DNA of 42,526 bases from Granulosicoccus sp. (lineage in GTDB: Bacteria; Pseudomonadota; Gammaproteobacteria; Granulosicoccales; Granulosicoccaceae): NCBI GenBank assembly GCA_013002205.1, contig JABDKN010000086.1:1-42526 (forward strand). Direction: 5' to 3'. Within the stretch, counting starts at the first letter, position 1; the number at the start of each line of letters is the position of its first letter. Below are positions 6,257 through 31,160 of the stretch, piece after piece. The position numbers and the translations under genes were made by a program. The notes beneath the pieces were generated by a model. The model was given only the letters and a program-made list of their open reading frames with translations, had not been told where the DNA came from and did no database searches.

Positions 6257-9200
6257 TCAGCTCGTCGGCACGGCCGTGGCAACAGGCACCTGCTGCGCAC
6301 CTGGCCCCAGGCGGATGACCACCCGCCGCTGGCCATGCTCGGGAAAACTGACGATATTACTGTGAACGGGGACACCGTCAACCACGATCATCGCGACACC
6401 CGAGCCTGTCCTTTCAGGATTCTCGATACACAGCGAGATGCTTGAATCTGCAGAACACAAGGTGACCTCGACCATCTCCCAGGCCGCAGGAATCGCAGGT
6501 TCCAGTCGTACGGCGCCAGGCAGGTAATCGATGCCCAGAATCCCATGGACACCCAGCTGCCAGGTCCAGCTGGCAGCGCCGGTATACCAGCTCCACCCGC
6601 CCCGTGCCTCGTGCAGACCACTGCCTCCAATATCTGCGGCGAGTACGTACGGTTCCCTGGCATACCGAATGGCGGACTCACGATCACTGGTGCGATACAC
6701 CGGGCTGATCATGCTGAATACCTCGTGAGCCTTGTCCGCCTTGCCCAGTGCTGCAAACGCCAGCCCCATCCACGCGGCGGCGTGGGTGTACTGGCCTCCG
6801 TTCTCACGAATGCCCGGTGGATAGGCCTTGATGTACCCGGGGTCACGAGGAGTGTCATGGAAAGGCGGCGTCAGCAGCCGCACGATTTGCAGTGTTCGAT
6901 CAATCAGCATTCTGTCGGCTTCCCGGACTGCGCCGAGTACCCTCTGTTCATCCGCAAAACCTGCCAGCACACCCCAGGACTGCGCCAGCAAGTCGATGCG
7001 ACATTCATCGTTGACAATCGATCCCCACGGCTCACCATCGTCATCGAATGCCCTGACAAACCAGCGACCATCCCAGCCATGAGCGTCAATAGCCTGTTTC
7101 AACTGCTCTGCATGGTGCTGCCATCGCCCTGCCAGCGATGTCTCATCGCGCTCGCGAGCAATCGGCATCATCAGGTCGATGGTGGCAATACGGAACCAGG
7201 CCAGCCAGACACTTTCACCACGCCCCAGGTGCCCGATCCGGTCCATCCCATCGTTCCAGTCGCCTGAACCCATCAACGGTAATCCGTGTACACCTGTCCG
7301 CATCCCATGATCGATCGCACGCCGACAATGCTCAAACAGCGTTCCACTCTCACCATGCTCATAGGTGGAGTAACGATCCTCTTCATCATCTTTCAACAGA
7401 GGCGCTCGCAGGAAAGGTGCAGAGACCTCGAGCACCGCTGAATCTCCAGTGGCTTTGACATAGCGGGCGGTCACATAGGCCAGCCATAGAAAGTCGTCGG
7501 AAATTCGCGTTCGTACACCCTTACCTTCGGGTGGGTGCCACCAGTGAAGAACATCGCCCTCTTCGAACTGATGGGCTGCGGCCAGCAGCAACTGGCGACG
7601 TACGCGTTGCGGATCCGATCCGATACACGCCAGTACGTCCTGAAGCTGGTCACGAAATCCGAAAGCACCACCTGCCTGGTAGAAACCGGCACGGGCATGC
7701 AAGCGGGACGAAATGCTCTGGTACTGGAGCCAGCCATTGATCATCAGGTCGAAACCGGCGTCCGGACTACTGACCTGCAGCGAGCCGCAGCTGCGTTTCC
7801 AGAAATCGGCTACAGCGACCAGGCCACTGCGAATCCTCTCTGGCGATTTCCACCGTCGTATCAGCTGTTCTGCATGGGCTCGGTCATTCCCCTCACCCAG
7901 GATGAAGGTAACGTCGAGCGCCGAGTTTTCCGCCATGTCGAGATGCACCTGGTAGGCTGCGCAGCTGTCACCACCCGGGGTGAACCTGCCACCCAGGTCC
8001 GAGCGCAGCAAACCCTCCGGAATACTCGACTCATTCATTTCATCCAGAAAATCCGCACGGTCGCCGCAGACACTGTGCGCAGGCAGGGTGGCCGTGACGA
8101 ATGCCACCCGCGATGCAAATTCGCTGTTCCAGCGATTGCCGGCCAGTATGGCTTCACTGCTGGCATCGTAACCGCAGACCACATGCGTCCTGGACTTACC
8201 GGCCATGGCTTCCATCACCCACTCGGCATAGAAGGTCACCGTAATCCGCCGGCTCTGGCCACTGCGATTGTCGAGTCGTACTGTCACCAGTTTGACCGGA
8301 TCATCGACAGGGACGAACACTTCCTGACACTGCTCCAGACCATGACTGTTGCGCAGCCATTGCGTCCGGCCGAAACCGTGTCGGACCTGCACAGGACACT
8401 CTATCTGCCTGCCTGTCGGGGAAATGGTCCAGAGCTCTCCGCTGACTTCATCACGCAGCCATAGCTGCTCACCCTGGCGGTTGCGGACCGGGTCGTTGGA
8501 CCAGGGAGTCAGGCGATGTTCACCACTGTTCTGTGCCCAGGTACAGCCGAGTCCGGCCTCACTGACAATGGCACCGAACTGCTCGTTCGCCAGGATATTG
8601 CACCAGGGAGCCGGTGTTGAAACTCCCGGTTCCAGGTGTATCACGTAGTCTCCGCCGGATCCGTCGAAACCACCGATACCGTTATCGAACAGCAGTCCTT
8701 CCGGACGGACAACGGATTCGAGCTCAGACGCGGCGACATTGCCGGGTGCCACGAAGTGCGGTGGCCGGGGTGGCGTGCTCAACACATCTGCCAGGCGTTC
8801 ACCCAGGGGTCGGTCCGAATCGAGTACCACGGTGGCGGCCATGAGTATGTTTTCCCGGCTCAGCCGTGACAAATGAGCAACGGCAAGCAGATGCACCCCA
8901 CCTTGCCGCCCGAGCCAATCGCTACCGTGCATATCCCTCAGCAGCTCCATCACTTTCTCGCGCAACGGGTTCTCATAACCGGTTTCGGTGAGCTGGAACA
9001 CGCAAAGGTCGATCTCCAGCCCCCTGATTCTCCAGAGAAACTGCGCGCGCACCAGTCTTTCGAGAAGCTCTGTCCGAGTGACGTCATGGATGCGCAACAG
9101 TACTATCGGCAGATCACCTGAGATACCCACTCGCCAGAGCTCGGACTGTTCAGGCAGTCTCACTTCCGCCAGTGGCGGAACGGCACGCAGTGCTGCGTCC

Positions 9201-12200
9201 GGGTACTGCAGCAATGAGGCCATGAACTGCAACTGTGGTAACTCCGAGTTGTCCAGGCCCAGGCGATGCACTTCCTGGGCAGCAGACCATGGAGCGTCAC
9301 CAATCAGGCGATCGATGGCAGGGCTGGCATATCGTTGCGCCTTGGTCCGAACATCCTGGCGCGACATCCCCACGCTGGTAACGAAGTTCAGGCTGCGAGT
9401 TTCACCCGCCGGTACCGTCACGCTGGCACGTAGTGCCATTATCGGATCCAGTGTCCAACCGCTGGTGCCGGACAGATGCCTGGGCACACCTCCCGGTGCA
9501 AGCGACCTGTCCCGGCGACCGGTCCAGTGATGACGATCCGTCTCCAGCCCCTCGAAACGGATTCCCGGATCATCGCTGACGATCCGATGCAGAAGAACCG
9601 GCGTCGCTCTCTGCGCATGCCGGTGTCGACGTTCGAACGACACGCCCAGCAGCGGCGCTTCCTCCTGGCTGCCGATGAACATCTTGTTGAATGCCGGATG
9701 TCGTTCATCATCAGCAGCGGGCGAGAGCACCACCTCGGCATAACTGGTCAGAGTCAACTGCCGGGTGAACTGCCCTTCATTGACAATGGATACACGCCTG
9801 ATATCCAGATCATCCGATGCAGCGACGATGGCTTCCAGTCGAACCGCCATGTCACCTACATGCTGCACGATCTCGACACCATGCTGAGAATAGGTGGTTC
9901 GGGCTTGTGAACCAGGTCTTGAAACGATCGTCGAGCCGATCCACCAGTCATTGCTCTCTGCAAGATCACTCACATGAATGCGATACCCGGAGTGAGCCCG
10001 TGCCTTGTCGCTGGACACGCGCGTCAACTGGATGCCCTTGTAGCTCAGACCACCACCGCCACACCGAGATACCTGTGCAGACAGTGCGCCGTTACCCAGC
10101 AGATGCATCTGCGGCAGTCCTGCCGAAATGGCGGGATTCCACGCAGTGAGCAGGTCCGGACGAACGGCTGCCTGCCTGTCTGCGCGTGCATCCTCGGCGT
10201 TTGCAAGCTCTTCCGGCGCTCCCCAGGGAATACGCTCCTGAAGCAACAACTCGACAGCCTTGAGCGAAGGCTCCCGAAGCACACGCTGTGGCATGAGGTC
10301 CCTGGCCAGCACGTTGCACATGGCGATTAGGGACATTCCCTGATGATGTGCCATCACGGTGTCAACCGGATGGAACCTGGTCGAGTGAGCCACCCTCGAA
10401 CGGGTGAAGTCCAGTGCATCGATGAATCCGTAGGGACCGAGGCAGCCCAGCGATTCCAGCTCCCGCAAGTTACCCACGGCAGCCTTGGGCCATACTCCCA
10501 GTGCCAGCATGCTGGCGTAGGGAGCGACGACCGAATCGTCCACCAGACCTCGACGTATTCCGAGCCGGGGAATACCAAATGCCTTGTACTGGTAGACCCC
10601 CCGGGCATCTGTGATGGCAAATGCCGATTCGGAAACTCCCCAGGGCAGGTCGAGCCGCTGCGCATAACGCTGCTGTGCAATGACCGCAAGCGATTCACTC
10701 TCGCCGATCAGGGTATCCCGTTTGCCCGGCAGGAACAGCGTCGGCATCAGGTACTCGAACATCGAACCGCTCCATGATTGCAGGACCGGGTGTCCGTCCT
10801 CACGCGCCACTGGACGGCCAAGATGAAACCAGTGTTCCAGTGGCACATCATGTTTGGCGATGGCAAAGAAACTGGCAAGACGTGCTTCGGAGGCCAGCAG
10901 ATCGTAGTGGTTGGAATCGAGCATACTCGTACTGACGTTGTAACCGATGTGGAACAAGCGGCTGCGCTTGTCATAGAGCCAGCTGAAGTCCATGGACCAG
11001 GCTATCGACTCTGCCCGTGAGGCCACCTCACGCAATCGTTTCGACAGAGCGCTCTGGCGCTCTCGGGCGGCGTCGACTGCACGCAGAAAACGCTCTGCCC
11101 AGTCATTGGCAGGACCATCATGGGTCCCTGCAGCCCGAAGGTCATGGCAGGCTCGTCGCAGGGCAAGGTCGGATTCGACGAGCGTTGACAGCGGATAGCC
11201 CTGGCGCAACAGTTCATCGATGACCGCGGACAGCTGTGTGTATTCCGAGGGCATGTCATCGAGCAACGTCAACCATGGAAGCAAGTCATGAACATCGCGA
11301 AACTGAGTGGTCAGCTGATGATCGAATCGTTCCACCCAGACTCGAATCTGTTCTACCTGTTCAACACCTGCAGTGCCCCGGTCGATGAGCTCACGCATCA
11401 GCTGTTGATGGGTCTCGGTCCAGTGAGCCAGAGAATGCGATCGGAAGACATTCCGGTTCGCGATGCCCTCATCACGACACAGTCCTGCCAGGTGGGCGTC
11501 AAGTCTTTCGAGCTGGCCGGACAATTCCGCACTCAGTGACAGCCCGCCTGCCTGTATCGATGTCATGATGAGATGCAGGGTATCGTCCAGTCCTTGCCAG
11601 CGGGATGCCCGCAACAGCGGCGCTGAATCCAGCTCCAGACAGCCCTGCTTCATCGCCACCAGGCTGATCGCAAAGTTACCGTTGTCGACCGTAGACACAT
11701 AACGTGGCTCCAGAGGCACCAGTGTTTCCGTGTCGTACCAGTTCAGAATCTGACCGCGATGCGCCGGCAGGCGCTCGACCGTCTCCAGCAGGTTCTCTGC
11801 ACGCACCACCAGCTCAGGGACGCCGATGAAACCCAGGTCACAGGCAGCCAGTACCGAGTTCAAATACAGGCCGATGTTCGTCGGAGAGGTCCGGTGAGCT
11901 ATGCCAACTTCTGCATGAGACTGGACGTTGTCCGGTGGCAGCCAGTTGTCATCGGGGCCGGCGAAGGTCTCGAAATAGTGCCATGTGGACCGTGCGATAC
12001 GCCGCAGGAACAGTTGATCGTCGGCGTTCAGCGAATCCCGCCGGAAAGCCCTTGGCTCGCTGAGCCAGAAAACCAGTGGCGGAGCCAGGAGCCAGGCCAG
12101 AAGTACGGGTGCAGCAACCGGCAATGCCATCGGGTTGCTCATCAGCAACAGGCCCGCCGTGCCCAGGGCTACCAGCGGGGATACCCAGACCAGCTGTGAC

Positions 12201-14737
12201 AGCATGCTCCTGCACGACGATCCGCTGCGCCGCGAATGGGCTGCGCTGCGCCACTGAAGCAGGTGCCGTCCGGACACATAACGCCGCCACAGAGTCCTGC
12301 CGATCGCATCGATCGATATCAGGGCATCAGGGACGATCACTGTAATGGACACTGCCCATCTGGACGCCTGCTCCCGGAGTGCATGCAGGTAGCCTCTGGC
12401 TGGCAGTCGACTTGACACCAGTACCAGACCGGTCAGTGTTTCATTGGCCAGGTAAGGGGCAAACGCACCCATGGCCAATACTGTCCAGACTATCGGACTA
12501 CCGGGGAACCAGGTCCAGGCACCCAGGATGTACAACAGCAGGACCGGGGGTACGATGCTGCGTCGCAGGTTGTCCACAAGCTTCCAACGATCCATGAATG
12601 AGAAGCGGTTTTGCGACAGTTGACCTGATCCATCGGGCACCTTGCGCCTCAGCCAGGACAATAACTGCCAGTCGCCCCTGATCCAGCGATGACGTCGCTC
12701 GCAGTGTTCCGACCAGGTCTCCGGAAAGCTTTCGTACAGCACGATGGTCGAGGCCAGCGCCACCCGACCGTGCAGGCCCTCGAACAGGTCATGACTGAGT
12801 ATGCGATTTTCGGGTACACGTCCAGCCATACTCTGGTGGAAGCCTTGCAAGTGATAGATTCCCTTTCCCACATAGCTGCCTGATCCGAACCAGTCATGAT
12901 GGAAATCGGAGACCGCATGGGAATAGATATCGATGGCACAATCACCGGAGTACAGCCTGGCAAAGCGTGAACTGGATTCACGTGACTCCAGCGTCTCGAT
13001 TCTGGGTTGGAGAATCGTGTACCCGGACTGCACGGCACCGGATACCGGATCAAATACCGGTTGATTGAGCGGATGCTCGAACATGCTGACCAGAGCAGCA
13101 GCAGTGCCGGGAGGCAGCATGGTGTCGCCGTCCAGACTGATGACGTACTTGACGCCTGTCAACTGATCGACGCTACCCTCTGTGAGGGTGAATGGCTCAC
13201 TGTTGCCCTCTGTCAGAAACGCATTGAATTGCTCGATCTTGCCACGCTTGCGCTCCCAGGCCATCCAGCAAGCTTCACCAGGGTTGTACTCCCGTGATCG
13301 ATGCAGCAGCATGAACCGGTCAGCGTGTGCCGCTTCGAGTCGCTGTCGTGGGTATCGCCTGTTGAGTCGCCTGATGCCTTCCACCAGGGCCTTTTCTATG
13401 TGCTTGTCAAGCGCAAGAGATTCAACGTCGGCATCAACCGGATCAGAGAGCAGGACGTACCGTAGATAGTCTTCGGTATTGGCCAGATACCGTAATTCCA
13501 GTTTTTCGATCAGGCTGTCCACTTCTTCAACGCTGGCAACGATCACGGGCACCGCGACAACGCACAGGAAATTTTCGGCCTCCAGTTGGTGACGATCCAG
13601 AGAATACAGGTGGCGCCTGGCAATCAACTGTGGTGCCCACCAATTAACGAACTGTACGGCGATATCACTGGCCGGTATCACGGACAGCATGAGTACGCCG
13701 ATGACACTCCAGGGCGTGGCTTCCACCGCAGAGAGGTAGAGGAACGGCACGCTCATTCCCATGATCGTAACCAGGCATAACAGCAAGACATACAGGCCAC
13801 TGGCATGACGCTGCGCGAACCTCAGGATCTTTTCACGCCCGGGTGCCTGGAAGCCGAGTTTGCGTTCCAGCCTGTGCACACCGGCATCACTCAGCCAGTA
13901 GCCGACATGCGAGCTTCTATCGCCATCCGCCTCACTGGCGAGCTGCAGTGCCTCTTGTGCCACTTCCTGTTCTGAATACCGGCAATGTCGGGCGAGAGTT
14001 TCAACTGCCCGTCGATATTCGATTCGGGATGTCTGCCGCATCCGGGCGTAGACGCCAGCCGGATCCAGAGCCAGAATACTCTCCACCCCACTCATCTCAT
14101 CCACGAAATCCGGCCAGTTGATCTCTGCGATGATCCGCAGACTGGCAATGGCCCCACTGACCCGTTCAATGGAGCCTTCGCAGGCGTTGTCTTCAACGAT
14201 CCTGTTGCTGGCAAAGGGCATGTACTGATCGGACAACAGGGCGCAAACGCCTTGCACCAGGTTTTCCATGCAGGCAATACGCAGTAATGCAGGTATGGCC
14301 CAGAGCTCAGCCTCTGACAGCGCGGCATGATGTTGATAGGCAGCGGTAAACCGCACCAGCCGTGCACGTGTCAATTGCAGGCGTGTCTTACCGAGCAAAC
14401 CGTGAACGAGCAGGTAGGCGCGTGGCAGATTCTGATAAGTGCTATCGCTGAGCCGTGGCAACCGTCGGAAAAATTCCACGGGAAGATCTTCCGACATGAG
14501 CCGCAAGGCACGAACCACCAGGTAATCATTGTCGAGAATCCAGTTAGCTGCAAGATCGAACCCTGCAGGAGGCTCGGCGCTGATGCGATGAACATCGTCG
14601 AACCATGCCTTTACTTCATCTAGGTGCTGCAGGATATCCGGCCTGGCTGGCGATGCCGCATCCCAGGTGCAGGAAATGGCAATACGCTCGACCTGAGTCT
14701 CCAGTGGAACCTGGGCATCTGGATTGATCGACGCCAT
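6257..14737 (-). CDS. ndvB: cyclic beta-1,2-glucan synthase (GT84 + GH94)
   Basis: The product is 2826 residues, the length class of rhizobial NdvB/ChvB/Cgs. These inner-membrane enzymes build beta-1,2-glucan from UDP-glucose on a protein primer, cyclise it, and trim chain length by phosphorolysis; the product goes to the periplasm. Visible in order: membrane helices about 309-360; a GT84 glycosyltransferase domain with SLDGDT (about 535) and RHRWIRGDWQ (about 684); membrane helices about 726-762 and 844-892; a glucoamylase-like domain (about 1000-1500) with LASEARLASFFAIAK and SWSGSMFEYLMP; and a C-terminal GH94 phosphorylase module with NEQFGAIVSEAGLGCTW (about 2045), GFRDQLQDV (about 2362) and GDWNDGM (about 2493), whose second Asp is the family's catalytic acid. 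All key motifs are present. It starts at ATG, 3 nt after the stress-protein stop. No transporter like NdvA is next to it. Confidence 0.88.
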   Translation of the reverse strand: MASINPDAQVPLETQVERIAISCTWDAASPARPDILQHLDEVKAWFDDVHRISAEPPAGFDLAANWILDNDYLVVRALRLMSEDLPVEFFRRLPRLSDSTYQNLPRAYLLVHGLLGKTRLQLTRARLVRFTAAYQHHAALSEAELWAIPALLRIACMENLVQGVCALLSDQYMPFASNRIVEDNACEGSIERVSGAIASLRIIAEINWPDFVDEMSGVESILALDPAGVYARMRQTSRIEYRRAVETLARHCRYSEQEVAQEALQLASEADGDRSSHVGYWLSDAGVHRLERKLGFQAPGREKILRFAQRHASGLYVLLLCLVTIMGMSVPFLYLSAVEATPWSVIGVLMLSVIPASDIAVQFVNWWAPQLIARRHLYSLDRHQLEAENFLCVVAVPVIVASVEEVDSLIEKLELRYLANTEDYLRYVLLSDPVDADVESLALDKHIEKALVEGIRRLNRRYPRQRLEAAHADRFMLLHRSREYNPGEACWMAWERKRGKIEQFNAFLTEGNSEPFTLTEGSVDQLTGVKYVISLDGDTMLPPGTAAALVSMFEHPLNQPVFDPVSGAVQSGYTILQPRIETLESRESSSRFARLYSGDCAIDIYSHAVSDFHHDWFGSGSYVGKGIYHLQGFHQSMAGRVPENRILSHDLFEGLHGRVALASTIVLYESFPETWSEHCERRHRWIRGDWQLLSWLRRKVPDGSGQLSQNRFSFMDRWKLVDNLRRSIVPPVLLLYILGAWTWFPGSPIVWTVLAMGAFAPYLANETLTGLVLVSSRLPARGYLHALREQASRWAVSITVIVPDALISIDAIGRTLWRRYVSGRHLLQWRSAAHSRRSGSSCRSMLSQLVWVSPLVALGTAGLLLMSNPMALPVAAPVLLAWLLAPPLVFWLSEPRAFRRDSLNADDQLFLRRIARSTWHYFETFAGPDDNWLPPDNVQSHAEVGIAHRTSPTNIGLYLNSVLAACDLGFIGVPELVVRAENLLETVERLPAHRGQILNWYDTETLVPLEPRYVSTVDNGNFAISLVAMKQGCLELDSAPLLRASRWQGLDDTLHLIMTSIQAGGLSLSAELSGQLERLDAHLAGLCRDEGIANRNVFRSHSLAHWTETHQQLMRELIDRGTAGVEQVEQIRVWVERFDHQLTTQFRDVHDLLPWLTLLDDMPSEYTQLSAVIDELLRQGYPLSTLVESDLALRRACHDLRAAGTHDGPANDWAERFLRAVDAARERQSALSKRLREVASRAESIAWSMDFSWLYDKRSRLFHIGYNVSTSMLDSNHYDLLASEARLASFFAIAKHDVPLEHWFHLGRPVAREDGHPVLQSWSGSMFEYLMPTLFLPGKRDTLIGESESLAVIAQQRYAQRLDLPWGVSESAFAITDARGVYQYKAFGIPRLGIRRGLVDDSVVAPYASMLALGVWPKAAVGNLRELESLGCLGPYGFIDALDFTRSRVAHSTRFHPVDTVMAHHQGMSLIAMCNVLARDLMPQRVLREPSLKAVELLLQERIPWGAPEELANAEDARADRQAAVRPDLLTAWNPAISAGLPQMHLLGNGALSAQVSRCGGGGLSYKGIQLTRVSSDKARAHSGYRIHVSDLAESNDWWIGSTIVSRPGSQARTTYSQHGVEIVQHVGDMAVRLEAIVAASDDLDIRRVSIVNEGQFTRQLTLTSYAEVVLSPAADDERHPAFNKMFIGSQEEAPLLGVSFERRHRHAQRATPVLLHRIVSDDPGIRFEGLETDRHHWTGRRDRSLAPGGVPRHLSGTSGWTLDPIMALRASVTVPAGETRSLNFVTSVGMSRQDVRTKAQRYASPAIDRLIGDAPWSAAQEVHRLGLDNSELPQLQFMASLLQYPDAALRAVPPLAEVRLPEQSELWRVGISGDLPIVLLRIHDVTRTELLERLVRAQFLWRIRGLEIDLCVFQLTETGYENPLREKVMELLRDMHGSDWLGRQGGVHLLAVAHLSRLSRENILMAATVVLDSDRPLGERLADVLSTPPRPPHFVAPGNVAASELESVVRPEGLLFDNGIGGFDGSGGDYVIHLEPGVSTPAPWCNILANEQFGAIVSEAGLGCTWAQNSGEHRLTPWSNDPVRNRQGEQLWLRDEVSGELWTISPTGRQIECPVQVRHGFGRTQWLRNSHGLEQCQEVFVPVDDPVKLVTVRLDNRSGQSRRITVTFYAEWVMEAMAGKSRTHVVCGYDASSEAILAGNRWNSEFASRVAFVTATLPAHSVCGDRADFLDEMNESSIPEGLLRSDLGGRFTPGGDSCAAYQVHLDMAENSALDVTFILGEGNDRAHAEQLIRRWKSPERIRSGLVAVADFWKRSCGSLQVSSPDAGFDLMINGWLQYQSISSRLHARAGFYQAGGAFGFRDQLQDVLACIGSDPQRVRRQLLLAAAHQFEEGDVLHWWHPPEGKGVRTRISDDFLWLAYVTARYVKATGDSAVLEVSAPFLRAPLLKDDEEDRYSTYEHGESGTLFEHCRRAIDHGMRTGVHGLPLMGSGDWNDGMDRIGHLGRGESVWLAWFRIATIDLMMPIARERDETSLAGRWQHHAEQLKQAIDAHGWDGRWFVRAFDDDGEPWGSIVNDECRIDLLAQSWGVLAGFADEQRVLGAVREADRMLIDRTLQIVRLLTPPFHDTPRDPGYIKAYPPGIRENGGQYTHAAAWMGLAFAALGKADKAHEVFSMISPVYRTSDRESAIRYAREPYVLAADIGGSGLHEARGGWSWYTGAASWTWQLGVHGILGIDYLPGAVRLEPAIPAAWEMVEVTLCSADSSISLCIENPERTGSGVAMIVVDGVPVHSNIVSFPEHGQRRVVIRLGPGAQQVPVATAVPTS

Positions 14738-14740
14738 GAC

Positions 14741-15772
14741 TCAGGCCATAGTTGAATTTGCCCGGAGTCCGGCTGATGCTTTGACGTCAGAGTACAGGCG
14801 GGCGTCAGTCTTCTCATATTCCCGGCCGATCATCAGCACGGGTACCTGCGCATTCTCGAGGACAAACCGGGCAACGGTGCCGGTAGCAACATCGGCATGA
14901 CCCGTCGTGCCCTGGGAGGCGATCAGCACCAGGTCGGACTGGGTGTCTTTGACGACCTCGATCAGTTTGTGCCTTACATCCCCCCCCTCAAGCACCCTCG
15001 TGGTCATCGGCAATGCCTGGGACTCCACGCGAGAACGGATATTCGCCAGATACTGGCTGGCTACACGGCGATTGCGAAGCATGACTTGCTTGCGCAAGTC
15101 GAGTGCTTCAGGCTCCAGAGGGCCCGTTACAGTCAAACCCGCATCCGGTGTGACATGCACGAAGAGCAGCTCCGCACCGTGAAAACGTGACAGCGCGACA
15201 GCCGCTGGCAGTACTCGTTCGGCACGTGACGATCCATCCAGCATGACCAGAAGCCGCCGGTAACTCGCCGGGCAGTCTGCGCTGACGTTCTCTGGCACGA
15301 GCAGCACAGAACTGCATCCGCTATGCATGAAGCGTCGCAATTCGTCTTCCCGATCCCAGGGAAGTACCTTCTCATGCCTGGCAAAGCAGAAGATCGGTTC
15401 GTGGTCGGGATCGTGGCAACCGCCTATCAATGACGGCAGAAAACGCTGCACGATACGAGTGTCCGTGGGACAGCCAGCGTGCCCATAGCGCGCCTCGAGT
15501 TCAGTCAGTCGTACCTGCGCCTGGCGCTTCTTCAGATCCCACTCCACCGGATCGACCGGTATGCCTGCGGCCTCACCAGCGCCGACGACCTGTACCAGCC
15601 GCACTTTCCTGCCCAGCGCCTGTGCCACGGCCATGGCATGGGGGATGGTTGTCTGCACCTCACTGGTGGAATTGCTCTTGAGCAGCACTACGCCCTCGGA
15701 AGATGCCTCCTCGGCACCGGGGCGAGACTCGTCCTGCCGTGAAACGGTACGATCCAGCAGTTCACCTTGCAT
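14741..15772 (-). CDS. universal stress protein, tandem-domain type
   Basis: This is a soluble protein of 343 residues. The C-terminal half (about 171-317) is a clear UspA fold: it begins YRRLLVMLDGSSRAERVLP and ends with the nucleotide-binding pattern A-x2-G-x9-G-T (residues 285-299, ASQGTTGHADVATGT) followed by VPVLMIG. The N-terminal half (about 27-160) keeps the strand and helix order (VVLLKSNSTSEVQTTIPHAMAVAQALG, in parts) but lacks a recognisable ATP motif, so it looks like a decayed first Usp domain. A GGAG ribosome site lies 7 nt before ATG. It is the first gene of the transcript that continues into the glucan synthase 3 nt downstream, which suggests stress-linked production of periplasmic glucan; that link is inference. 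Confidence 0.88.
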   Translation of the reverse strand: MQGELLDRTVSRQDESRPGAEEASSEGVVLLKSNSTSEVQTTIPHAMAVAQALGRKVRLVQVVGAGEAAGIPVDPVEWDLKKRQAQVRLTELEARYGHAGCPTDTRIVQRFLPSLIGGCHDPDHEPIFCFARHEKVLPWDREDELRRFMHSGCSSVLLVPENVSADCPASYRRLLVMLDGSSRAERVLPAAVALSRFHGAELLFVHVTPDAGLTVTGPLEPEALDLRKQVMLRNRRVASQYLANIRSRVESQALPMTTRVLEGGDVRHKLIEVVKDTQSDLVLIASQGTTGHADVATGTVARFVLENAQVPVLMIGREYEKTDARLYSDVKASAGLRANSTMA

Positions 15773-21616: not shown

Positions 21617-21694
21617 ACGACCATCATCGCAGCGGAAAATGATTTCGACTTGATCTTCATCAATTCAAGTAGCCGACACTGCGGGCGATACTGA

Positions 21695-21763: not shown

Positions 21764-22072
21764 ATGCTACGAATCGATTGCCGGGCAGTGCTGTTGTTGC
21801 CGGTGTTTCTGCTGCAGGGATTTCAGGCAAGTCTGGCGGATGCCGATTACGCACGCGGCGAACTGCTGTATGAAAATCATTGCCGGCAGTGTCACGAAGC
21901 CAATGTGCATCAACGTGACAGCAGGCGAGTGACGTCTGCCGACGAACTGAGGATCTGGGTCACTGCCTGGGGCGTCCACGCAGCACCTGAATGGAGCGAC
22001 GACGACATCATGGACGTGGCGCATTATCTCGAGGTGAACTTCTATGACTTTCCGCCAGAGGCGTCTCGTTGA
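21764..22072 (+). CDS. small periplasmic c-type cytochrome
   Basis: The product is about 102 residues from ATG 21764. A signal peptide is clear (MLRIDCRAVLLLPVFLLQ, then QASLADA with a likely cleavage before DADYARG). One haem site CRQCH follows the ARGELLYENH helix typical of class I cytochromes. The next part (VHQRDSRRVTSADELRIWV) and the C-terminal helix with DDDIMDVAHYLEVNFYDFP match a group of small single-haem proteobacterial cytochromes; the distal ligand is not obvious, the only Met being in DDDIMDVAHYL. It probably carries electrons in the periplasm, but its partner is not in the window. It is a single gene between two leftward blocks and converges on the carrier-protein gene. Confidence 0.88.
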   Translation: MLRIDCRAVLLLPVFLLQGFQASLADADYARGELLYENHCRQCHEANVHQRDSRRVTSADELRIWVTAWGVHAAPEWSDDDIMDVAHYLEVNFYDFPPEASR

Positions 22073-22142: not shown

Positions 22143-22388
22143 TCATTCGATGACCTCGTCGAGATAGCTGCACAACGCATTGTAACTGCTCATTCGCGGG
22201 TAGTCCGCTTCGGGCATCGGTACACCGAATCGCTTGCCCAGGGCAGTCACCAGGTGCAGAAAATCCATGGAGTCCATGTCGAATTCTTCGCGCAGGTCCT
22301 CATCTGCATCGATGCTCTCAAACTCGATATCCGGTGCAATCCGGTGCAGCTCCTCCTGCACGGCACGCTGTGTCGCGTTCATGTTCAC
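22143..22388 (-). CDS. acyl carrier protein
   Basis: The product is 81 residues, acidic, with the 4'-phosphopantetheine attachment serine at 40 in DMDSMDFLHLV, followed by a helix and a short C-terminal helix (YNALCSYLDEVIE). This is the standard carrier-protein fold. It is not in a fatty-acid cluster; it is the last gene of the acetyl-CoA synthetase/E1/E2 operon, so it probably has a dedicated role there. The start may be GTG 22388, which overlaps the E2 stop (GTGA) and has GGGGG just upstream, or ATG 22382, two codons later. Which acyl group it carries is unknown. Confidence 0.9.
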   Translation of the reverse strand: MNMNATQRAVQEELHRIAPDIEFESIDADEDLREEFDMDSMDFLHLVTALGKRFGVPMPEADYPRMSSYNALCSYLDEVIE

Positions 22389-23650
22389 AAGTCCCCCGGG
22401 GATTCGATATTTTGTCGTATATGGCGAAGAAACAGCGCACCTCGATGACCATCACTGACCCGATGGTCAGCTGCCAGTGTCATGTCCATCAACAACCTGG
22501 CCTCGAGGACACCGCCTTCACCAACCCAGGGACGCAGTGTCGGAGTACCGAAACCAACAATGGCCACCTGCGGTGGATAAATGACACCATACAGGCTCTG
22601 CACGCCCCGCTCGCCAAGACTCGAGACAGTGATGGTAGGGTCTGCCAGCTCACTGGCACGAAACCGGCCACCGCGTACCCGCTGGATAAGATCACGCATG
22701 CGAATCATGACACCGTCGATGTCCAGCTCATGGGTATCGTGGATCGCGGGCGCAACCAGCCCTCCACCTCGAAGATTGATGGCCATGCCGGCATGCACGC
22801 TGGCAGCCGGGCTGAAGACCCCGTTGTCGAACGTTCCGTTGAACTCGGGATACTTGACGCATGCCGTGGCAACCGCCTTGAGCAGCAAGGCACCCAGCAA
22901 TATACGTTGCGATGGATCGCGCTCACTGTTGAGTGTCGCAAGCCACTGGTCTGCGCAACTGATGTCCAGCGTCTGCGACAGGTAATAGTGTGGTATCTCT
23001 CGTTTGGATCGCGCCATCGCAGCCGCAATGGCACTGCGCATCTCTGACGTTGCTGTTTTGAGGGTCGTCGACTCTGCTGCCGTCCCGACGGTGCCATCCT
23101 GCAACCGCGACGCAGAATCCGCCAATGACGATCCTCGTTCATCACGTTGCGCGCCTGAGCGGACATCGCGCAGGACAATGGCCCCCTGCGGGCCGGATCC
23201 TGAGACCCGGGTAATGTCGATATCCAGCTCCGCCGCAAGTTTTCGCGCGGCCGGGCTGATTTTCTGTCTGCCTCCTTCTGCTCCTCCCCGAGCCGCATCC
23301 TGCGTCAACCCGCCGGCCACATCGACGGTCACGGGCTCCCTGGGTGAACTGATCTCCCCGGAAGCCTGAGTGGGCGCAGTAGTTGCCCGGTCCGGTGCCG
23401 ACTTCACGCCTGAGTCCGGCGTCTGGATGATTGCCAGAGGAGTACCTACAGGTACAGGTTTGCCAATATCCACCAGATGGGATTCGAGCACACCATCGTC
23501 GTAGGCTTCAATCTCGATGGCCCCTTTCTGGGTCTCCACGACAGCGACGATATCTCCGCGACTGACGGTATCACCCGGCTTCTTCTGCCATTCGATCAAG
23601 GTACCGGTTTCCATATCCGAACCCAGCGATGGCATGAGAAACTCAGCCAT
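22385..23650 (-). CDS. 2-oxo acid dehydrogenase E2 component (dihydrolipoamide acyltransferase)
   Basis: The product is 421 residues in the E2 order. The N-terminal lipoyl domain (1-76) carries the lipoate-accepting Lys42 in [10 protein letters not shown] Pro/Thr/Ala-rich linker leads to a peripheral-subunit binding domain (about 131-168, [19 protein letters not shown] then [11 protein letters not shown]). The catalytic domain (about 200-421) ends with the active-site motif DHRVSDG containing His396 and Asp400. It transfers an acyl group, most likely acetyl, from lipoate to CoA. It overlaps the E1 gene by 8 nt and the carrier-protein gene by 4 nt. No dihydrolipoamide dehydrogenase (E3) gene is in the window, so E3 must come from elsewhere. 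Confidence 0.92.
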
Positions 23651-25676
23651 GAGCCGGCGCCCCGTCCTTGCCGAACAGCTTGTGTACCGCTGCCACTATG
23701 CCCGCTACCTGGGGTATGGCGGCTTCTTCCAGATGCTGTGCATACGGCACCGGCACCTCTTCACTGCAGACACGTACCAGTGGCGCATCGAGTTCGAAGA
23801 AGCTGTCCTCAGCCAGGCGCATACCGATCTCGGCAGCAAGGCTGCCGCTGCGCCAGCCTTCATCGACCAGTACCGCCCGGTGAGTCCTGGCTACCGATGC
23901 CTTCACCGTATCCATGTCCAGGGGACGAAGACTACGTAAGTCGATAACCTCGGCATCGATACCTTCACCTGCAAGCGTCTCGGCTGCCTGCATCACCTTG
24001 TGCAGAGACCCGCCGTAGGTGATCAGTGAAACATCCTCTCCGTCCCTGCGAATTGCCGCAGCTTCGATGTTGACGGCTCCCGCATTCGACGGCAGCGTGC
24101 CCGTGCTGTTGTACAGCATCACGTTTTCGAAGATCAGCACGGGATCCGGATCCTGCAATGCCGCCAGCAGCATGCCTCGCGCATCCTCGATCGTTGCCGG
24201 CGTCAGTATGCGAAGTCCCGGAATGTGTGCATACCACCCTTCGAGACTATGAGAGTGCTGCGCGGCAAGCTGTTTGCCGGCACCGGTGGCCATGCGGATG
24301 ACCACGGGCACGCCGAACTGATTGTTGGACATGTGGCGCAGGGTGGCTGCCGTATTGAGTATCTGATCCAGCGCCAGCAAGGAAAAATTCACCGTCATCA
24401 CTTCGACAATGGGACGCATACCTGCAATCGCAGCACCGATGCCTGCTCCGGTAAAACCGGATTCGGACAGGGGTGTATCACGTATGCGCTCGGGACCGAA
24501 TTCATCCATCAGGCCTTTGCTGACCGCATAACATCCACCGTAGGCACCGACGTCCTCACCCATCAGGAAGACCCGTTCATCCTGGATCATGGCATCACGG
24601 ATGGCTGACCTGACAGCTTCCCTGTAGCTGATTTCCGACGGTGTGCCGGCGGATTCGTCGCCCGTCGCAGACGCCACAGCCGGTGGGGTGCTCTGCTCGG
24701 CCGTCACATAGCGTGTCAGGTGATCCAGTGCCTCGAGTGTGCCGGATTCGGCAAATTCCACAGCCTCGTCAATTTCCCGCTGTATCGTCGCTTCGATCCT
24801 CTGCAGCTCATCAGCGTGCAGCATTCCGGTTTCTTCGAGCCAGCTCTGGAACCGGAGTATGGGGCCGTGCTCACGCCAGGCAGCCACCTCCTCTTTCTGC
24901 CTGTACAGTTGTGCATCAAACATGGAATGGGGGCGGAATCGGTAGGTCCGACACTCCAGGAAACAGGGTCCTCCACCTTCCCGAATCTGTGACAGCGCAT
25001 CCCGCGCAGCAACTTCGACGGACACGACATCCATGCCGTCCACGACATGGCTCTGCATGCCATAGGTAGCGGCACGCGACGCAATGTCGGTCCGGGCTTC
25101 CGATCGATCAAGCGCGGTACCCATCGCATAGCCGTTGTTCTCGCAGATGAACAACACCGGCAGCTGCCACAACGCGGCCAGATTCATGCTTTCGTGAAAC
25201 TCTCCCTCTGCCACAGCACCTTCTCCGAAGAAACAGGCGGTCACACGCTTTTCCGAGCGCATCCGGTCGGCCAGCGCAAGCCCGACAGCCAGCGGCAGAC
25301 CACCGCCGACGATAGCGTTACCACCGTAGAAGTTATGCTCTGCACTGAACAGATGCATCGAGCCACCGCGACCGCCTGCGCAGCCTTCGGCCTTGCCATA
25401 CATTTCCGCCATGACACTCTGCATGGTCAGTCCACGCACAAGCGCATGCGCGTGTTCCCTGTAGGTCGCCACCAGTCGATCGTGCGGTTCGAGTACCGGG
25501 ATGGTGCCGACCGCAACGGCCTCCTCACCATCGTAGAGATGCAGGAACCCGCGTATCTTCTGCCGGGTGTACATCTCTGCGCACTTGTCCTCGAACTGCC
25601 GGATACGCATCATCGATGACAACAATTCGAGTGCATGCGCATGATCGAGCCGGGGTTTCCTGGTCGGTGCAGTCAT
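23643..25676 (-). CDS. 2-oxo acid dehydrogenase E1, alpha and beta subunits fused
   Basis: The product is 677 residues. The first 320 or so are an E1-alpha subunit with the thiamine-diphosphate motif from GEG (151-153) to ENN (179-181) and the phosphorylation-loop region [13 protein letters not shown] linker rich in Ala, Ser and Thr (about 325-348) leads to an E1-beta subunit starting [14 protein letters not shown], with the conserved GEDV (373-376), [14 protein letters not shown], and the C-terminal transketolase-like domain ([14 protein letters not shown]). The alpha and beta chains are usually separate genes; a single fused chain is an odd feature. Pyruvate, or acetoin as in AcoAB, are the plausible substrates; the sequence alone does not decide. 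Its ATG overlaps the acetyl-CoA synthetase stop (ATGA). Confidence 0.92.
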
Positions 25677-27424
25677 TTTTCATCACTCTCGAGCGTTGAT
25701 ATATCGCCCACCGGCAAACCCAGTTCGCGGGCCTTGAGCAGGCGTCTCATGATTTTGCCACTGCGCGTCTTCGGCAGATTCTCCCGAAAGACTATTTCCT
25801 TGGGCGCCACGGCCGGCCCCAGGCGCTTGCGCGCATGGCCCAGCAGGTCAAGCATCAGTTGATCATCGGCCGTGTACCCGGTCTTCAGCTCGACGAAGGC
25901 CTTGACGATTTCACCCACCATCTCGTCCGGCAGACCTATGACCGCCGCCTCGGCAACGGCTTCGTGTTCCATCAATGCGCTTTCCACTTCGAACGGCCCG
26001 ATGAGATGACCGGCGCTCTTGATCACATCATCACTGCGGCCGACGAACCAGAAATAGTCATCCTCATCACGCATGGCCAGGTCCCCACTCAGGTACCAGC
26101 CGTCGGCAAAGCATTTCCGGTAGCGCTCCTGTTCATCCAGATAACCTCGCATCATGGACGGCCATCCACTGCGTAATGCCAGCTCACCCACGGCACCCGG
26201 TTTCGTCAACTCCCGCACACCCTGCCCGGTTTTTTCCACTATGCCAGCCTGTATTCCCGGCAATGGCTTGCCCATGGAACCGGGCTTGACCGTCATGGAT
26301 GCGTAGTTGGCAATCATGATGCCGCCGGTTTCTGTCTGCCACCAGTTGTCATGGAACGGCATGCCAAATACCCGGTTACTCCAGACTACCGCCTCAGGAT
26401 TCAATGGTTCGCCGACACTGGCCATGAAACGCAACGACGACAGATCGTACTCTGCGGCGATCGAATCACCGGATTTCATCAGCATGCGAATTGCCGTGGG
26501 TGCGGTGTACCAGACATTGACTGATTCCTCCTGGAGGATGCGATACCAGGCAAGGGCGTCGAATTCACCCTCGTTGACGATCATGGTGACGCCATTGGTC
26601 AGGGGAGCAATGATTCCATAGGATGTACCAGTGACCCAACCGGGATCCGCCGTACACCAGTACGTATCGCCCTGCTTCAGATCCAGCACATACTTTCCCG
26701 TGATGTTGTGCGCCACCACCGCCTCGTGGACATGAATCGCACCCTTTGGCTTGCCCGTCGTGCCGCTGGTGAAATGCAGCAGGGCCATATCTTCCGGATC
26801 AGTCGCCACTGTTTGAAAACTGGCGGATGCCTGCTCCATCATTGCGCCATAGTTCATGGTGTCCTCAGACGGAGAATCATCGTCGATCAACAGGATATGC
26901 GTCAGGCCAGGCAGCGATTTGCGGATACCGGCAACCTTGCGACGATAGAGTGCCCGGGTCGTCACCAGTACCTTTGCATGACCAATATCCATCCTGGACC
27001 TGACAGGCTCAGGCCCAAAGGCTGAAAACAGGGGACAATAGACGCACCCCGCCTTCAGAGTACCGAGAACGGTGACGTACAGTTCCGGTACCCGTCCCAG
27101 CAGCGTATAGACACGATCCCCCCTGGTAACCCCCAGCGTGTGCAGGACATTGGCGAAACGGCTACTGAGCTGCGCCAGGGCGGCGTAGGTAAAATCCTTG
27201 CGCTGCGCATCCCTGGCAATCCAGCGCAAGGCGATAGTGTCAGACATGCCGTGTTGCACATGCCGATCCACTGCCTCGTAGGCGATGTTGAGCTTGCCCT
27301 CCGGAAGCCCATCGAGCAACTGTCGTGCACTGTCCCATGAGAATTGCCGAACTGCGCTCTGGTAGTCCGGCATGTTGAACACACCAGGTTCTGTACCGGA
27401 CTTTTCTATGGCGGGCGAATCCAT
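25673..27424 (-). CDS. acetyl-CoA synthetase (acetate-CoA ligase), AcsA-like
   Basis: The product is 583 residues of the AMP-forming acyl-CoA synthetase family; length and motifs fit Bacillus AcsA-type acetate-CoA ligase. Visible motifs are the P-loop [10 protein letters not shown] (219-228), WWQTETGG (361-368), the adenylate-binding SGDLA with Asp448, the hinge region [20 protein letters not shown] and the catalytic Lys557 in RSGKIMRR, which is also the site acetylated for control in this family. Propionate or other short acids cannot be excluded. A GGGAG ribosome site lies 9 nt before the ATG. It is the first gene of the operon, under a perfect FNR-type site about 100 nt upstream. Confidence 0.9.
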
Positions 27425-27519
27425 CAGACAGTCTCCCGAAACGGATACGTTAGTCTTTCATCCTGCGTTCACGCTGGATGCGTTTCTTCTTACGCTGCGC
27501 CAAACACGCCCACCCTGCA

Positions 27520-27533
27520 TTGATCGGAATCAA
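27520..27533 (-). promoter_or_regulatory. perfect FNR/ANR-type binding site
   Basis: TTGATCGGAATCAA matches the FNR/ANR/DNR consensus TTGAT-N4-ATCAA at all ten positions, and the dyad extends one base each side (A...T). It lies in the 176-nt gap between the GT4 gene end and the acetyl-CoA synthetase start, with its centre about 102 nt upstream of the latter. Bound at -41.5 it would activate a start near 27485, leaving a 60-nt leader, though the expected -10 place (near 27492-27499) is not a good match. About 0.04 such sites are expected by chance in a random 42.5-kb sequence. The other 150 nt of the gap shows only a GC-rich potential hairpin near 27545-27585 and no convincing gene. Confidence 0.65.
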
Positions 27534-27600
27534 TCAGATTCGTGATCGTCGCCCTCCAGCGTGCTGCGGGGGTGGGCGGTCGCCTACGGTGTTCGCGCAT

Positions 27601-28881
27601 TCAGCCTTCGCTTGTATCCAGGGCATCGATGGCGGAACGGGCCGTGCTCTTGACCAGTTCCCACTCGCTTTCGACGACCGCTACCGCTTCGGACCAGACC
27701 GAATAATCGTCCTGTCGCTCGGGCAGATGCCGGCGCAGCAGGCCGGCGTACAGCGCCAGCGCCGTACTGGCCGTTTTCTCCATGGAAAAGCGCTCTGCGG
27801 TCTGCCTGGCACCCTGCTGCAGCTGCGCGTAGCCTGCAGCATTCAGCGCAGCGATCGATGCAAGCGCGTCGGCAAAATCCCGCACCACCGCACCGGGTAG
27901 CAGGTGCCCGTTTACGCCATCGTCAAGCACCTCTCTAACCCCGGATGCGTCGATGGCAACCACTGGCACACCGGATGCCATGGCTTCGGTCAATACCATC
28001 CCCTGGGTTTCCGAGGTGGATGCAAATGCGAACACGTCCATCGCATGATAGGCATCGGCCAGTTCGTCTTCGTCGACGACGCCCGGTAGATGCAGATATT
28101 CGGACAGGCCCGCCGTGTCGAACTGGCTCAGTACGAACTGCTCCAGAGGCCCACTGCCGTATATCAGGCAGTGTACTGGTCGAGACATCGCCGCGGAACA
28201 CATGCAGGCTATGATCGACTCTATGAGGAACGGAAGATTCTTCTCCCTGGTCAGTCGCCCGAGGTGACCGATGACGAACGCATCATCCGGAATACCCAGC
28301 GATTGCCTGGTGTTGCTGCGCTCACCTTTTGCAAACGCGTCCGGGTCCACACCGGTCGGTACCACGTTGACTGGCGAGGTGACACCTCTGTTGCGAATTA
28401 TCGTCTGGATGCTCTGGCTGGGCACGAATACCTGATCACACAGGTTTGCATAGTTGGTTGCCAGGTTCTTGACGAAACGCTTGAGCAATGGCGAGTCGCC
28501 GGGCACATTGTGAGTGTAGTCTTCGTACCGCGTGTGATGGGTAAACACCAGGGGCAGCTTGAGCGTATGTGCAACCCGCATGGCCGTACCGCCGACGAGA
28601 AAGGGATGGTGCGAGTGCACGACCTGTGGCCTGAAACGTTCAACGGCCCTGTTCAGGCGATGAGGAATCGGGAGTGCCACGGAAAAATCCGTATGATTGA
28701 AATGACGCACGGCAGGAATGCGCACGACATTCGGCTCAGCTTCCGGCATCCCATCGAATTCCGGCGCGATGACCATGACGTGATGACCCAACTCGCGATA
28801 TCGATGGGAAAAACGCTCGATCGAACGTGCAACACCTCCGACGTGCGGTGTAAACGTGTTGGTCATCATCAGGATGTTCAT
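27601..28881 (-). CDS. glycosyltransferase family 4 protein
   Basis: The product is about 426 residues with the GT-B fold. The N-terminus MNILMMTNTFTPHVGGVARS has the glycine-rich loop; HSHHPFLVGGTAM and the following HTRYEDYTH segment are typical of GT4 diacylglycerol or phospholipid glucosyltransferases; the C-terminal half has VVPTGVD, GHLGRLTREKN and the E-x7-E motif in ETQGMVLTE (about 290-298). It probably adds a sugar from an NDP-sugar to a lipid or glycan acceptor at the inner face of the membrane. I choose ATG 28881, which overlaps the preceding stop (ATGA), over a TTG at 28899. It is the last gene after the glycosidase-like and acyltransferase genes. Confidence 0.88.
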   Translation of the reverse strand: MNILMMTNTFTPHVGGVARSIERFSHRYRELGHHVMVIAPEFDGMPEAEPNVVRIPAVRHFNHTDFSVALPIPHRLNRAVERFRPQVVHSHHPFLVGGTAMRVAHTLKLPLVFTHHTRYEDYTHNVPGDSPLLKRFVKNLATNYANLCDQVFVPSQSIQTIIRNRGVTSPVNVVPTGVDPDAFAKGERSNTRQSLGIPDDAFVIGHLGRLTREKNLPFLIESIIACMCSAAMSRPVHCLIYGSGPLEQFVLSQFDTAGLSEYLHLPGVVDEDELADAYHAMDVFAFASTSETQGMVLTEAMASGVPVVAIDASGVREVLDDGVNGHLLPGAVVRDFADALASIAALNAAGYAQLQQGARQTAERFSMEKTASTALALYAGLLRRHLPERQDDYSVWSEAVAVVESEWELVKSTARSAIDALDTSEG

Positions 28882-31160
28882 CCGGCAATCCTTGTACAAA
28901 TCACCGAGCCGGAATCACCGGCTTCATGGATGACCACCGGTTCATGACCGTACAGGCGAACTTCGAGTGTTGGTGCCTTGCCATGCCAGCGTGCCTCCCA
29001 CTTCACTTCCCTGCCGGAATCGCCCGCGTTTGCAGGCAGGATGACGATACGACTATCGCCAAACAATGTAGGTACCATACCCAACGACAACTCTGTTCCG
29101 GCATCCAGCCACTGCGGCAGAATGCCCGAAGCCAGAATCAGTGATTCCGACTCTTCACGCACGAAGCAGTTACGCAACATGGAAATCCACTCGGCTGCAG
29201 CCCAGGCGTGATGACCGTCTCCCATGCACCCGCCTCCGGTGTTCGGATGCACAGCTTCGGGCCAGTGTCCTGCAGGCGATGCAATGTGTGCAACTTCATT
29301 CAACAGCGCTGCAAAGCGCTCATCGCCCGAGCGTAACAGAGCCTGTGCGACATGCAGTGTCAGGTAGGCGTTGACCCCCGAGTGAATCATGTCCTGAAAG
29401 AAACCATCTTCGTGGAAACAGTTCTTCAGCAGGTATTCAAGCGTTCCCAGCAAGCGTTCATCATCCGGCGCACATAGCTGCAAGGGGTAGGCAACCACCA
29501 CGGAGCCTATGGCACCTGCGTCCAGCCGACGCGTGGGAGCAGCTGGAATGGCCAGCCTGCCATCGGTATGCGACAGTTTCTGCAGACTCCTCTCGATTGC
29601 CGCACTAAACAGCATCGCCTGCTCTTCATGATGCTCTGCCAGCTCCTCCTTACCCAGCACCGCGGCAAGTCTTGCGGCGCTGTGCAAACCAGCCAGCGCC
29701 CAATAATTGTCCCAGTAGTAGTGATCATTGGGTCCCAGGTGCTCCGCACTGAAGCCTGCCGGCAACAGGCCTTCATGCGGCTGGCCGCCATAATCCGGTA
29801 ACCGCTTGCGCTGGATCCATTCCGCAGCCTTGCTCAGTGATGACCACAGCTGGGAATCCGGTAACTCCCCTGTCATCTGCGAAAATCGGTCTGCCAGCCA
29901 GAGTACCTCGCCATTGGCATCCCACTCACCTTCCTGTGAGTGGTAATAGCCGGAGTGTGATTGCCGTTCGGGAAAACGGTTGATCAGATGCCTTGCCCGA
30001 TCGATCAGACCGGCAGACAGCAGTCCATGACCGATGAACACGGCATCACGATACCAGTACCTCTTGTACGTGAACGGACCTGCGTGGCAGTCATCCGGTG
30101 TGCACAGAACCAGTGTGCGAACCGCTGCGTCATACAGTGATTTCAACCGCGCATCAGGGAGTTCAAGTTGCGCCTGCTGCTCCAGTGCGGTAACCCAGGC
30201 CTGGGTCGGCCAGGGCGTACGCGGTGACACAGGCCGGCGTTCCGGCGGTGCAGGCTTGACAGGGATGTCCAGGCTGATGCTCCGCGAGGTGCTTGAGGCG
30301 ACCTTGAATGAGGCAGCGGCGGTCACCAGCCCGACGGGGCACCGACAACTGTCCGCCTGTATTCGATCACGCAGGTGAACGAATACATCGCCTTCATGAT
30401 AGCGCGAGGCATGATGTTCATCAGGCGCCTGATCGAACACTACCGTGTTTTCATCGTTGACCGTCCAGGTGCGGGTAGGTTCGTCGAACTGGACATGCTC
30501 GATGAAACTCACGCCCTCCGGATTAGCCGGTCGCAGAGCAACCACGAGCCAGCCGGCATTATCCATCGAACATCGGGCAGTCAGGCGAATCCGGTCACCG
30601 TGTTCGCCGGCAACCATCCGGCAGCCTGTCTCGAGTTGCATACCATTGTCGTCCGTGCGCGTCATGACAGTATGCTCCTCGTCCATGACCTGCCACTGAT
30701 CGGCCCCGGTGACACGACAAGGCAGCAGCGTCTGTCCGTTTTCATCGATACACCAGACATCGATGGACCAGCTGTCCCAGAACGGAGTGAGTAGTCCACG
30801 CGGATCGATGATCGGCAGGGCTTTGCGCCCGGGAAGCCCGACGGCTGTCCAGTTGCGATGTGTCAGATTGATGTGTGTCAGTGAGAATGCGCGTGGCACG
30901 AAGGACACATCAGCCGGGTTGAACTGCCGCTCGACCCAATACGGCCAGACCCAGTCCAGATTGTGTTGAAGTACCCGGCTATTGAGCAGGCCGCGCGCGT
31001 GAAACACCGCACCGGCGCGCAGCAATTCGACAGGTTCGGATACCTCTGAGGGCTGAGCGAACCGTTGTAATCGCGCATACAGGGTCAGGGGGTCGAGAAA
31101 ACCGTGCGACCGTGCCAGCCTTGTGACTACATACCGCCATGGAAACCATTTTTGCATCAT
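28878..31160 (-). CDS. six-hairpin glycosidase-like protein (amylo-glucosidase superfamily)
   Basis: The product is 760 residues with no signal peptide (MMQKWFPWRYVVTRLARSHG). The first 330 residues are beta-rich with many Trp, like the N-terminal sandwich domains of such enzymes; the rest shows the alternating helix pattern of an (alpha/alpha)6 barrel. Conserved-looking stretches are YKRYWYRDAVFIGHGL (about 366-380), DANGEVLWLADRF (about 413-425) and DHYYWDNYWALAG (about 476-488), where Asp and Glu residues could be catalytic as in GH15 and related glucosidases. I cannot assign a numbered GH family. It starts at the first of two ATG codons, 37 nt downstream of the acyltransferase, and its stop overlaps the GT4 start, so it likely works on the same glycan. 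Confidence 0.8.
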   Translation of the reverse strand: MMQKWFPWRYVVTRLARSHGFLDPLTLYARLQRFAQPSEVSEPVELLRAGAVFHARGLLNSRVLQHNLDWVWPYWVERQFNPADVSFVPRAFSLTHINLTHRNWTAVGLPGRKALPIIDPRGLLTPFWDSWSIDVWCIDENGQTLLPCRVTGADQWQVMDEEHTVMTRTDDNGMQLETGCRMVAGEHGDRIRLTARCSMDNAGWLVVALRPANPEGVSFIEHVQFDEPTRTWTVNDENTVVFDQAPDEHHASRYHEGDVFVHLRDRIQADSCRCPVGLVTAAASFKVASSTSRSISLDIPVKPAPPERRPVSPRTPWPTQAWVTALEQQAQLELPDARLKSLYDAAVRTLVLCTPDDCHAGPFTYKRYWYRDAVFIGHGLLSAGLIDRARHLINRFPERQSHSGYYHSQEGEWDANGEVLWLADRFSQMTGELPDSQLWSSLSKAAEWIQRKRLPDYGGQPHEGLLPAGFSAEHLGPNDHYYWDNYWALAGLHSAARLAAVLGKEELAEHHEEQAMLFSAAIERSLQKLSHTDGRLAIPAAPTRRLDAGAIGSVVVAYPLQLCAPDDERLLGTLEYLLKNCFHEDGFFQDMIHSGVNAYLTLHVAQALLRSGDERFAALLNEVAHIASPAGHWPEAVHPNTGGGCMGDGHHAWAAAEWISMLRNCFVREESESLILASGILPQWLDAGTELSLGMVPTLFGDSRIVILPANAGDSGREVKWEARWHGKAPTLEVRLYGHEPVVIHEAGDSGSVICTRIAG

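Follow-up and report, generated by a model that had tools for sequence, protein, structure and literature searches.

A perfect FNR-type dyad upstream of a probably transferred acsA–pyruvate dehydrogenase–acyl carrier protein operon in Granulosicoccus sp., read as a candidate low-oxygen switch

Contig JABDKN010000086.1 of Granulosicoccus sp. (assembly GCA_013002205.1), analysed here over 42,526 nucleotides and called the window throughout, carries on its minus strand four tightly packed genes for acetyl-CoA metabolism, preceded by a short intergenic gap that contains a ten-position match to the recognition sequence of FNR and ANR. The features at the centre of this study are:

27520–27533: FNR-type dyad, TTGATCGGAATCAA, reading TTGATTCCGATCAA on the minus strand; 10 of 10 positions of TTGAT-N4-ATCAA
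25673–27424, minus strand: acsA, acetate--CoA ligase, 583 aa (NF003313, 923.9 bits, cut-off 729; Pfam AMP-binding)
23643–25676, minus strand: fused pyruvate dehydrogenase E1 alpha-beta, 677 aa; 4-nt overlap with acsA
22385–23650, minus strand: E2 dihydrolipoamide acyltransferase, 421 aa; lipoyl, E3-binding and catalytic domains with VETQKG and DHRVSDG motifs
22143–22388, minus strand: acyl carrier protein (ACP), 81 aa (PF00550, 35.2 bits, cut-off 20.8); FDMDSMDF attachment motif

The fused E1 scores above cut-off with two models (TIGR03182, 438.9 bits against 393.85; NF006667, 396.8 bits against 321), and the E2 reaches the cut-off of no listed NCBIfam model. Because each gene shares 4 to 8 bases with the next, the start of the ACP gene lying across the stop of the E2 gene, the arrangement acsA–E1–E2–ACP is likely to be read as a single transcript. 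There is no E3 among these four genes, so E1, E2 and E3 do not occur together in the operon; elsewhere in the genome, three lipoamide dehydrogenases (E3) exceed the TIGR01350 cut-off and two AceE-type pyruvate dehydrogenases exceed theirs. With both enzymes encoded elsewhere, we infer that the operon specifies an additional pyruvate dehydrogenase complex that must borrow its E3.

The dyad lies between acsA and a codirectional upstream glycosyltransferase open reading frame (ORF; 27601–28899, minus strand), its centre 102.5 nt from the acsA start codon. A first-pass annotation of the window had described a perfect dyad in a 176-nt gap, and both statements hold: all ten fixed positions agree with the consensus, and the gap (27425–27600) measures 176 nt. 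We rejected a plus-strand ORF (27478–27900) as the target of the dyad, 300 of its 423 nt being antisense to the glycosyltransferase ORF. On its other side the glycosyltransferase adjoins a 760-aa ORF (28878–31160) with no Pfam match at 1e-3; by eye, ORFs with similar starts adjoin the glycosyltransferase at two further loci (L170 and L171). The minus strand of the window also holds a very long ORF of 2826 aa (6257–14737).

Perfect dyads are rare by chance in sequence of this composition. Shuffling the window with its dinucleotides preserved gives 0.03 expected sites and an independent-base estimate gives 0.012, in reasonable agreement with the value of about 0.04 offered previously; the window contains two, a number reached in none of 100 shuffles. 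The earlier description of a perfect site was therefore right as far as it went, and left unmentioned the second, at 21650–21663, to which we return below. Genome-wide we count 17 perfect dyads in 4.46 Mb, compared with 0 for the reversed motif, 3 for TGATT-N4-AATCA and 0 for its reverse, and 0 for TTTGA-N4-TCAAA and 0 for its reverse. Two pairs (on contigs C118/C213 and C281/C299) look by eye like near-identical copies, so that about 15 dyads are distinct. Their neighbours include an FNR gene, another Crp/Fnr regulator (contig C144), two c-type cytochromes, a HiPIP, ccmC, a hybrid histidine kinase and a YgaP-like gene; some of the remaining dyads are within ORFs or lack an evident target. That the acsA-proximal dyad is simply a chance match in an intergenic gap is very improbable: at the window's base composition a genome this large should contain about 1.3 perfect sites, but the genome-wide excess, together with the enrichment and conserved spacing in orthologues described below, speaks against it.

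The C144 regulator, which has its perfect dyad 71.5 nt upstream, shares its locus (about 43651–51976 and onwards; L125, L163 and L165) with the second AceE gene, a lipoamide dehydrogenase and downstream ORFs that we take, from sequence likeness, to be thiolase-like and acetoacetyl-CoA-reductase-like. Here too, acetyl-CoA/PHB-like genes lie close to an FNR-type site.

Close relatives offer little for comparison at the acsA operon. At E 1e-180, a close acsA homologue occurs in the source genome only, among 48 family genomes, 28 of which are at least 90% complete; the order-level search covers the same 48 genomes. At E 1e-100, 43 of the 48 (own included) have a homologue, the other 42 being paralogues of 38–42% identity, which made footprinting with close relatives of no use. 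Since the operon's acsA is missing from the 47 other family genomes, conservation of the dyad was judged on distant orthologues only. In a class-wide sample of 369 genomes, at least 17 (own included) carry a close homologue; in a named collection, the best 80 of 150 relatives are 63–74% identical and are labelled Alphaproteobacteria (58), Gammaproteobacteria (15) and Betaproteobacteria (5). Plasmid records with a homologue at E 1e-150 number 32, Rhodococcus and Streptomyces among them. The gene order acsA, E1, E2, ACP recurs in all four annotated plasmid regions examined (L139–L142); crude ORF picking at 81 loci, the window included, recovered an E2 cluster at 57 and an ACP cluster at 44, counts from which some ORFs were lost to antisense ones, the window's own ACP included. 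On a Sulfitobacter plasmid (L139, 1–10339), the region upstream of the operon holds an F0F1-type ATP synthase cluster and, within about 5 kb, genes for FabI, a bifunctional enoyl-CoA hydratase/phosphate acetyltransferase and an acetate/propionate kinase.

In the acsA tree the window falls in a 39-row set (local support 98), of which 37 rows are labelled Alphaproteobacteria and the remaining two, as read from the tree drawing, are the window and the Sulfitobacter plasmid. This placement, with the absence from relatives, suggests horizontal transfer, and the operon was probably acquired in that way. The same observations (37 alphaproteobacterial rows of 39; no homologue in 47 family genomes at E 1e-180) would suit a dyad that is an inert leftover of the imported operon, as would the weak –10 element described below. 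We regard such a relic as quite improbable: none of the ten positions has decayed, even though the closest homologue, among the best 80 of 150, is just 74% identical at the protein level, and the host possesses a fitting FNR.

Upstream of orthologous acsA genes the dyad is retained well beyond chance. We scored 78 of the 80 named-collection loci (L080 and L118 were dropped, having less than 200 nt upstream), taking the best dyad in –200 to –1. Four loci have a perfect dyad, 30 a dyad with at most one mismatch and 48 one with at most two, whereas 100 dinucleotide-shuffle sets of the same loci give means of 0, 0.51 and 5.63 and maxima of 0, 3 and 11. Nineteen palindromes with a permuted half-site reach at most 4 of 78 at one mismatch and 7 of 78 at two; dyads with other spacers (2, 3 and 5–8 nt) are found at two mismatches in 4 to 16 of 78 loci, the 16 belonging to the 7-nt spacer; and a control 200-nt stretch within acsA gives 2 of 78. 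Upstream regions of other selected ORFs at the same loci are likewise enriched (72 of 385), and part of the signal may therefore belong to the neighbourhood.

Half of the same-class loci (8 of 16) have a dyad with at most two mismatches, a set that includes the near-relatives L146/L150, L147/L148 and L151/L152 and so represents fewer than 16 independent cases. Three of the four plasmid loci also have one, bringing the total over all rows (78, 16, 4 plasmid and the window) to 60 of 99. Presence of the dyad follows the tree, changing 18 times compared with 31.1 for shuffled labels, with none of 500 shuffles as low, and L055, the row nearest to the window by tree path, carries two perfect dyads, at –207 and –84. 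In –200 to –1 and at two mismatches or fewer, 30 of 78 named-collection and 8 of 16 same-class loci have no dyad, and the group of Vibrio, Oceanisphaera, Zobellella and Psychromonas has none at any of 11 scorable loci, so that a whole clade stands outside the pattern. L041, at 74% the most identical among the best 80 of 150, and L051 have none in this range; a wider range brings in two-mismatch sites for L041 (–214) and for L107 of the Vibrionaceae (–332), and a perfect site for L051 (–310). The first-pass annotation had named a lack of conservation in orthologues as the finding that would tell against the site; what we see is 48 of 78, against a shuffle maximum of 11 of 78, and 8 of 16 same-class loci. 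Judged from these upstream sequences, FNR control of the operon appears to be common yet not universal.

The spacing downstream of the dyad is informative about its putative mode of action. At the offset seen in orthologues, the window offers the following predicted elements:

27492–27497, minus strand: predicted –10 element, CAGCGT, 23 nt after the dyad; weak
27485, minus strand: predicted transcription start if the dyad centre lies at –41.5, leaving a 5′ leader of about 61 nt

With 48 dyad-bearing loci aligned on the dyad, TAnnnT occurs at offset 22 in 14 and at offset 23 in 6, and at every other offset from 6 to 50 in at most 2 of 48. A –10 at offset 22–23 would set the dyad some 41.5 nt upstream of the transcription start, which is where class II activators bind. 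Same-class loci, which lie outside this count, are similar: by eye, 6 of 8 dyad loci (L143, L144, L145, L146, L149 and L150; not L153 or L155) have a hexamer with A at position 2 and T at position 6 at offsets 22–24. The window's hexamer stands at the right offset but is weak, agreeing with TATAAT only at positions 2 and 6, as the earlier remark on a poor –10 region had it; it differs only in its first base from the TAGCGT found at offset 23 in L066 and L097. Distance to the start codon, by contrast with spacing to the –10, was rejected as a conserved feature: in 48 of 49 listed loci (window included) the dyad centre falls anywhere between –51 and –143, with one at –192. The proposed check, whether orthologues keep the dyad at the same distance, thus finds its presence kept, if patchily, together with its spacing to the –10, and not its distance to the coding sequence.

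FNR sites that overlap a core promoter can repress, and a sigma-70 consensus scan of 27380–27720 placed no promoter, so FNR might act at the acsA promoter as a repressor rather than an activator. We consider this quite improbable, since the spacing of dyad to –10 in the orthologues is that of activating class II sites; the lack of a sigma-70 match is unsurprising because the promoter would be activator-dependent. The single terminator-like site in the same scan is on the plus strand, opposite to that of the operon.

The genome encodes a regulator suited to the site. PF00325 matches lie at six places, and five of the proteins were read. The one on contig C187 has C-x2-C-x5-C near its N terminus, a further cysteine and an ETVSR recognition helix, uniting the residues expected of an iron–sulfur FNR with the matching DNA-reading motif; it scores 233.9 bits with NF008365 (Fnr; cut-off 228), and its best PDB matches are FNR-type regulators. 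Its own gene is preceded by a perfect dyad centred 60.5 nt before the start; when a divergent ORF is read at its greatest length, this dyad also lies just within it. The subfamily of this FNR and the AceE type of the other pyruvate dehydrogenases suggest a gammaproteobacterial host. A second protein, on contig C2 (L007), has ETVSR and no N-terminal cysteine cluster; its best NCBIfam models, FixK and FnrL, are both below cut-off, and by its recognition helix this FixK-like protein could bind the same box. It is accordingly possible, if rather unlikely, that the site is functional and that its activator is another Crp/Fnr protein with the same helix, such as this one, responding to nitric oxide or to a relay. 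The number of PF00325 matches leaves room for such an actor, and FixK shares the TTGAT-N4-ATCAA consensus in the available parts of PMC5596199; the dyad upstream of the FNR gene, in turn, is what would be expected of a direct FNR circuit.

On the balance of this evidence we favour, with a probability of roughly 80%, the reading that the dyad at 27520–27533 serves as operator in a class II promoter, activated by FNR, from which acsA–pdhAB–E2–ACP is transcribed when oxygen is low. When oxygen falls, the FNR-type protein would assemble its iron–sulfur cluster and dimerize, and the dimer would bind the dyad centred near –41.5 and recruit RNA polymerase to the weak –10 at 27492–27497. Expression of the operon would give the cell a further pyruvate dehydrogenase core, along with acetate--CoA ligase and an ACP dedicated to it, E3 being supplied by another complex, and would so add to the supply of acetyl-CoA under microaerobic or anoxic conditions. 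The earlier suggestion of oxygen- or nitric-oxide-responsive control of acetyl supply gains support from the orthologue dyads, the kept –10 spacing and the FNR gene, all of them features of sequence.

The second perfect dyad sets the operon in a wider context:

21650–21663: FNR-type dyad, TTGATCTTCATCAA, 107.5 nt before a plus-strand c-type cytochrome gene
21764–22072, plus strand: small c-type cytochrome, 102 aa, with CxxCH (PF13442, 27.3 bits, cut-off 27)

This dyad also stands 40.5 nt before a minus-strand DUF6647 ORF; the cytochrome is its probable target, to judge by the relatives. Three of 48 family genomes, own included, have the cytochrome; in the two relatives a perfect dyad precedes its ORF, with the centre 88.5 nt from the ATG in one and 68.5 nt in the other. 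Both relatives are also among the 4 of 48 genomes (own included) with homologues of the glycosyltransferase that lies upstream of the acsA operon. By sequence, ORFs next to one copy each of the glycosyltransferase and the cytochrome look universal stress protein-like. Such ORFs, with FNR-type dyads nearby, are seen at the relatives' loci L160 and L170, and the window has a universal stress family protein of its own (14741–15772). Taken together, these features suggest an accessory low-oxygen island.

The proposed promoter geometry is that of class II FNR-activated promoters in E. coli (FNR) and Pseudomonas (ANR). As in those systems, the dyad is followed, at the spacing kept in orthologues, by a predicted –10, and the candidate FNR has the cysteines and ETVSR; unlike them, the window has a weak –10, a start that is predicted, and an accessory acetyl-CoA operon as target. 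The same TTGAT-N4-ATCAA consensus is given for the FnrL/Dnr regulon of Dinoroseobacter shibae in the accessible parts of PMC5398030, and universal stress proteins and cytochrome oxidase genes are FnrL/FNR targets there and in the corresponding parts of PMC2908626. The box type and the universal stress-like ORFs near the relatives' dyads thus resemble the D. shibae FnrL/Dnr and core alphaproteobacterial FNR regulons as those parts describe them; none of the terms acetyl-CoA, pyruvate dehydrogenase and acyl carrier appears in the main text of either source. On Sinorhizobium meliloti pSymA, a FixK/Fnr motif is linked to PHB metabolism and nitrogen-utilisation genes (PMC5596199, in part), a likeness in that an Fnr/FixK box is tied to carbon-storage genes; the parts of that source at hand do not name an acsA–pdh–ACP operon, and 'pyruvate' is absent from its main text. 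The portions seen of PMC10888616 and PMC6201568 concern other pyruvate dehydrogenase genes. Across the literature covered, supplements aside and with subscription journals sparsely represented, we found no acsA–pdhAB–E2–ACP operon described as an FNR or FixK target, and the operon is apparently an undescribed target of a well-known FNR switch.

A more specific notion, to which we give little weight and which we think unlikely as a whole, is that we are dealing with a transferable acetyl module for low oxygen, switched by FNR, in which E2 would pass acetyl units to its own ACP, besides or instead of CoA, to feed a reductive electron sink of the fatty-acid or PHB kind. It draws on the ACP that follows E2 in 4 of 4 plasmid operons and on the FabI and associated genes upstream of one.

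In their textbook forms, pyruvate dehydrogenase and acetyl-CoA synthetase are chiefly enzymes of aerobic metabolism. A cassette that joins both to an ACP, is scattered across Proteobacteria and often has an FNR-type promoter in front would amount to a separate route to acetyl-CoA at low oxygen. This prediction could be tested simply in marine Rhodobacteraceae and rhizobia, and it hints at the purpose of a little-described cassette.
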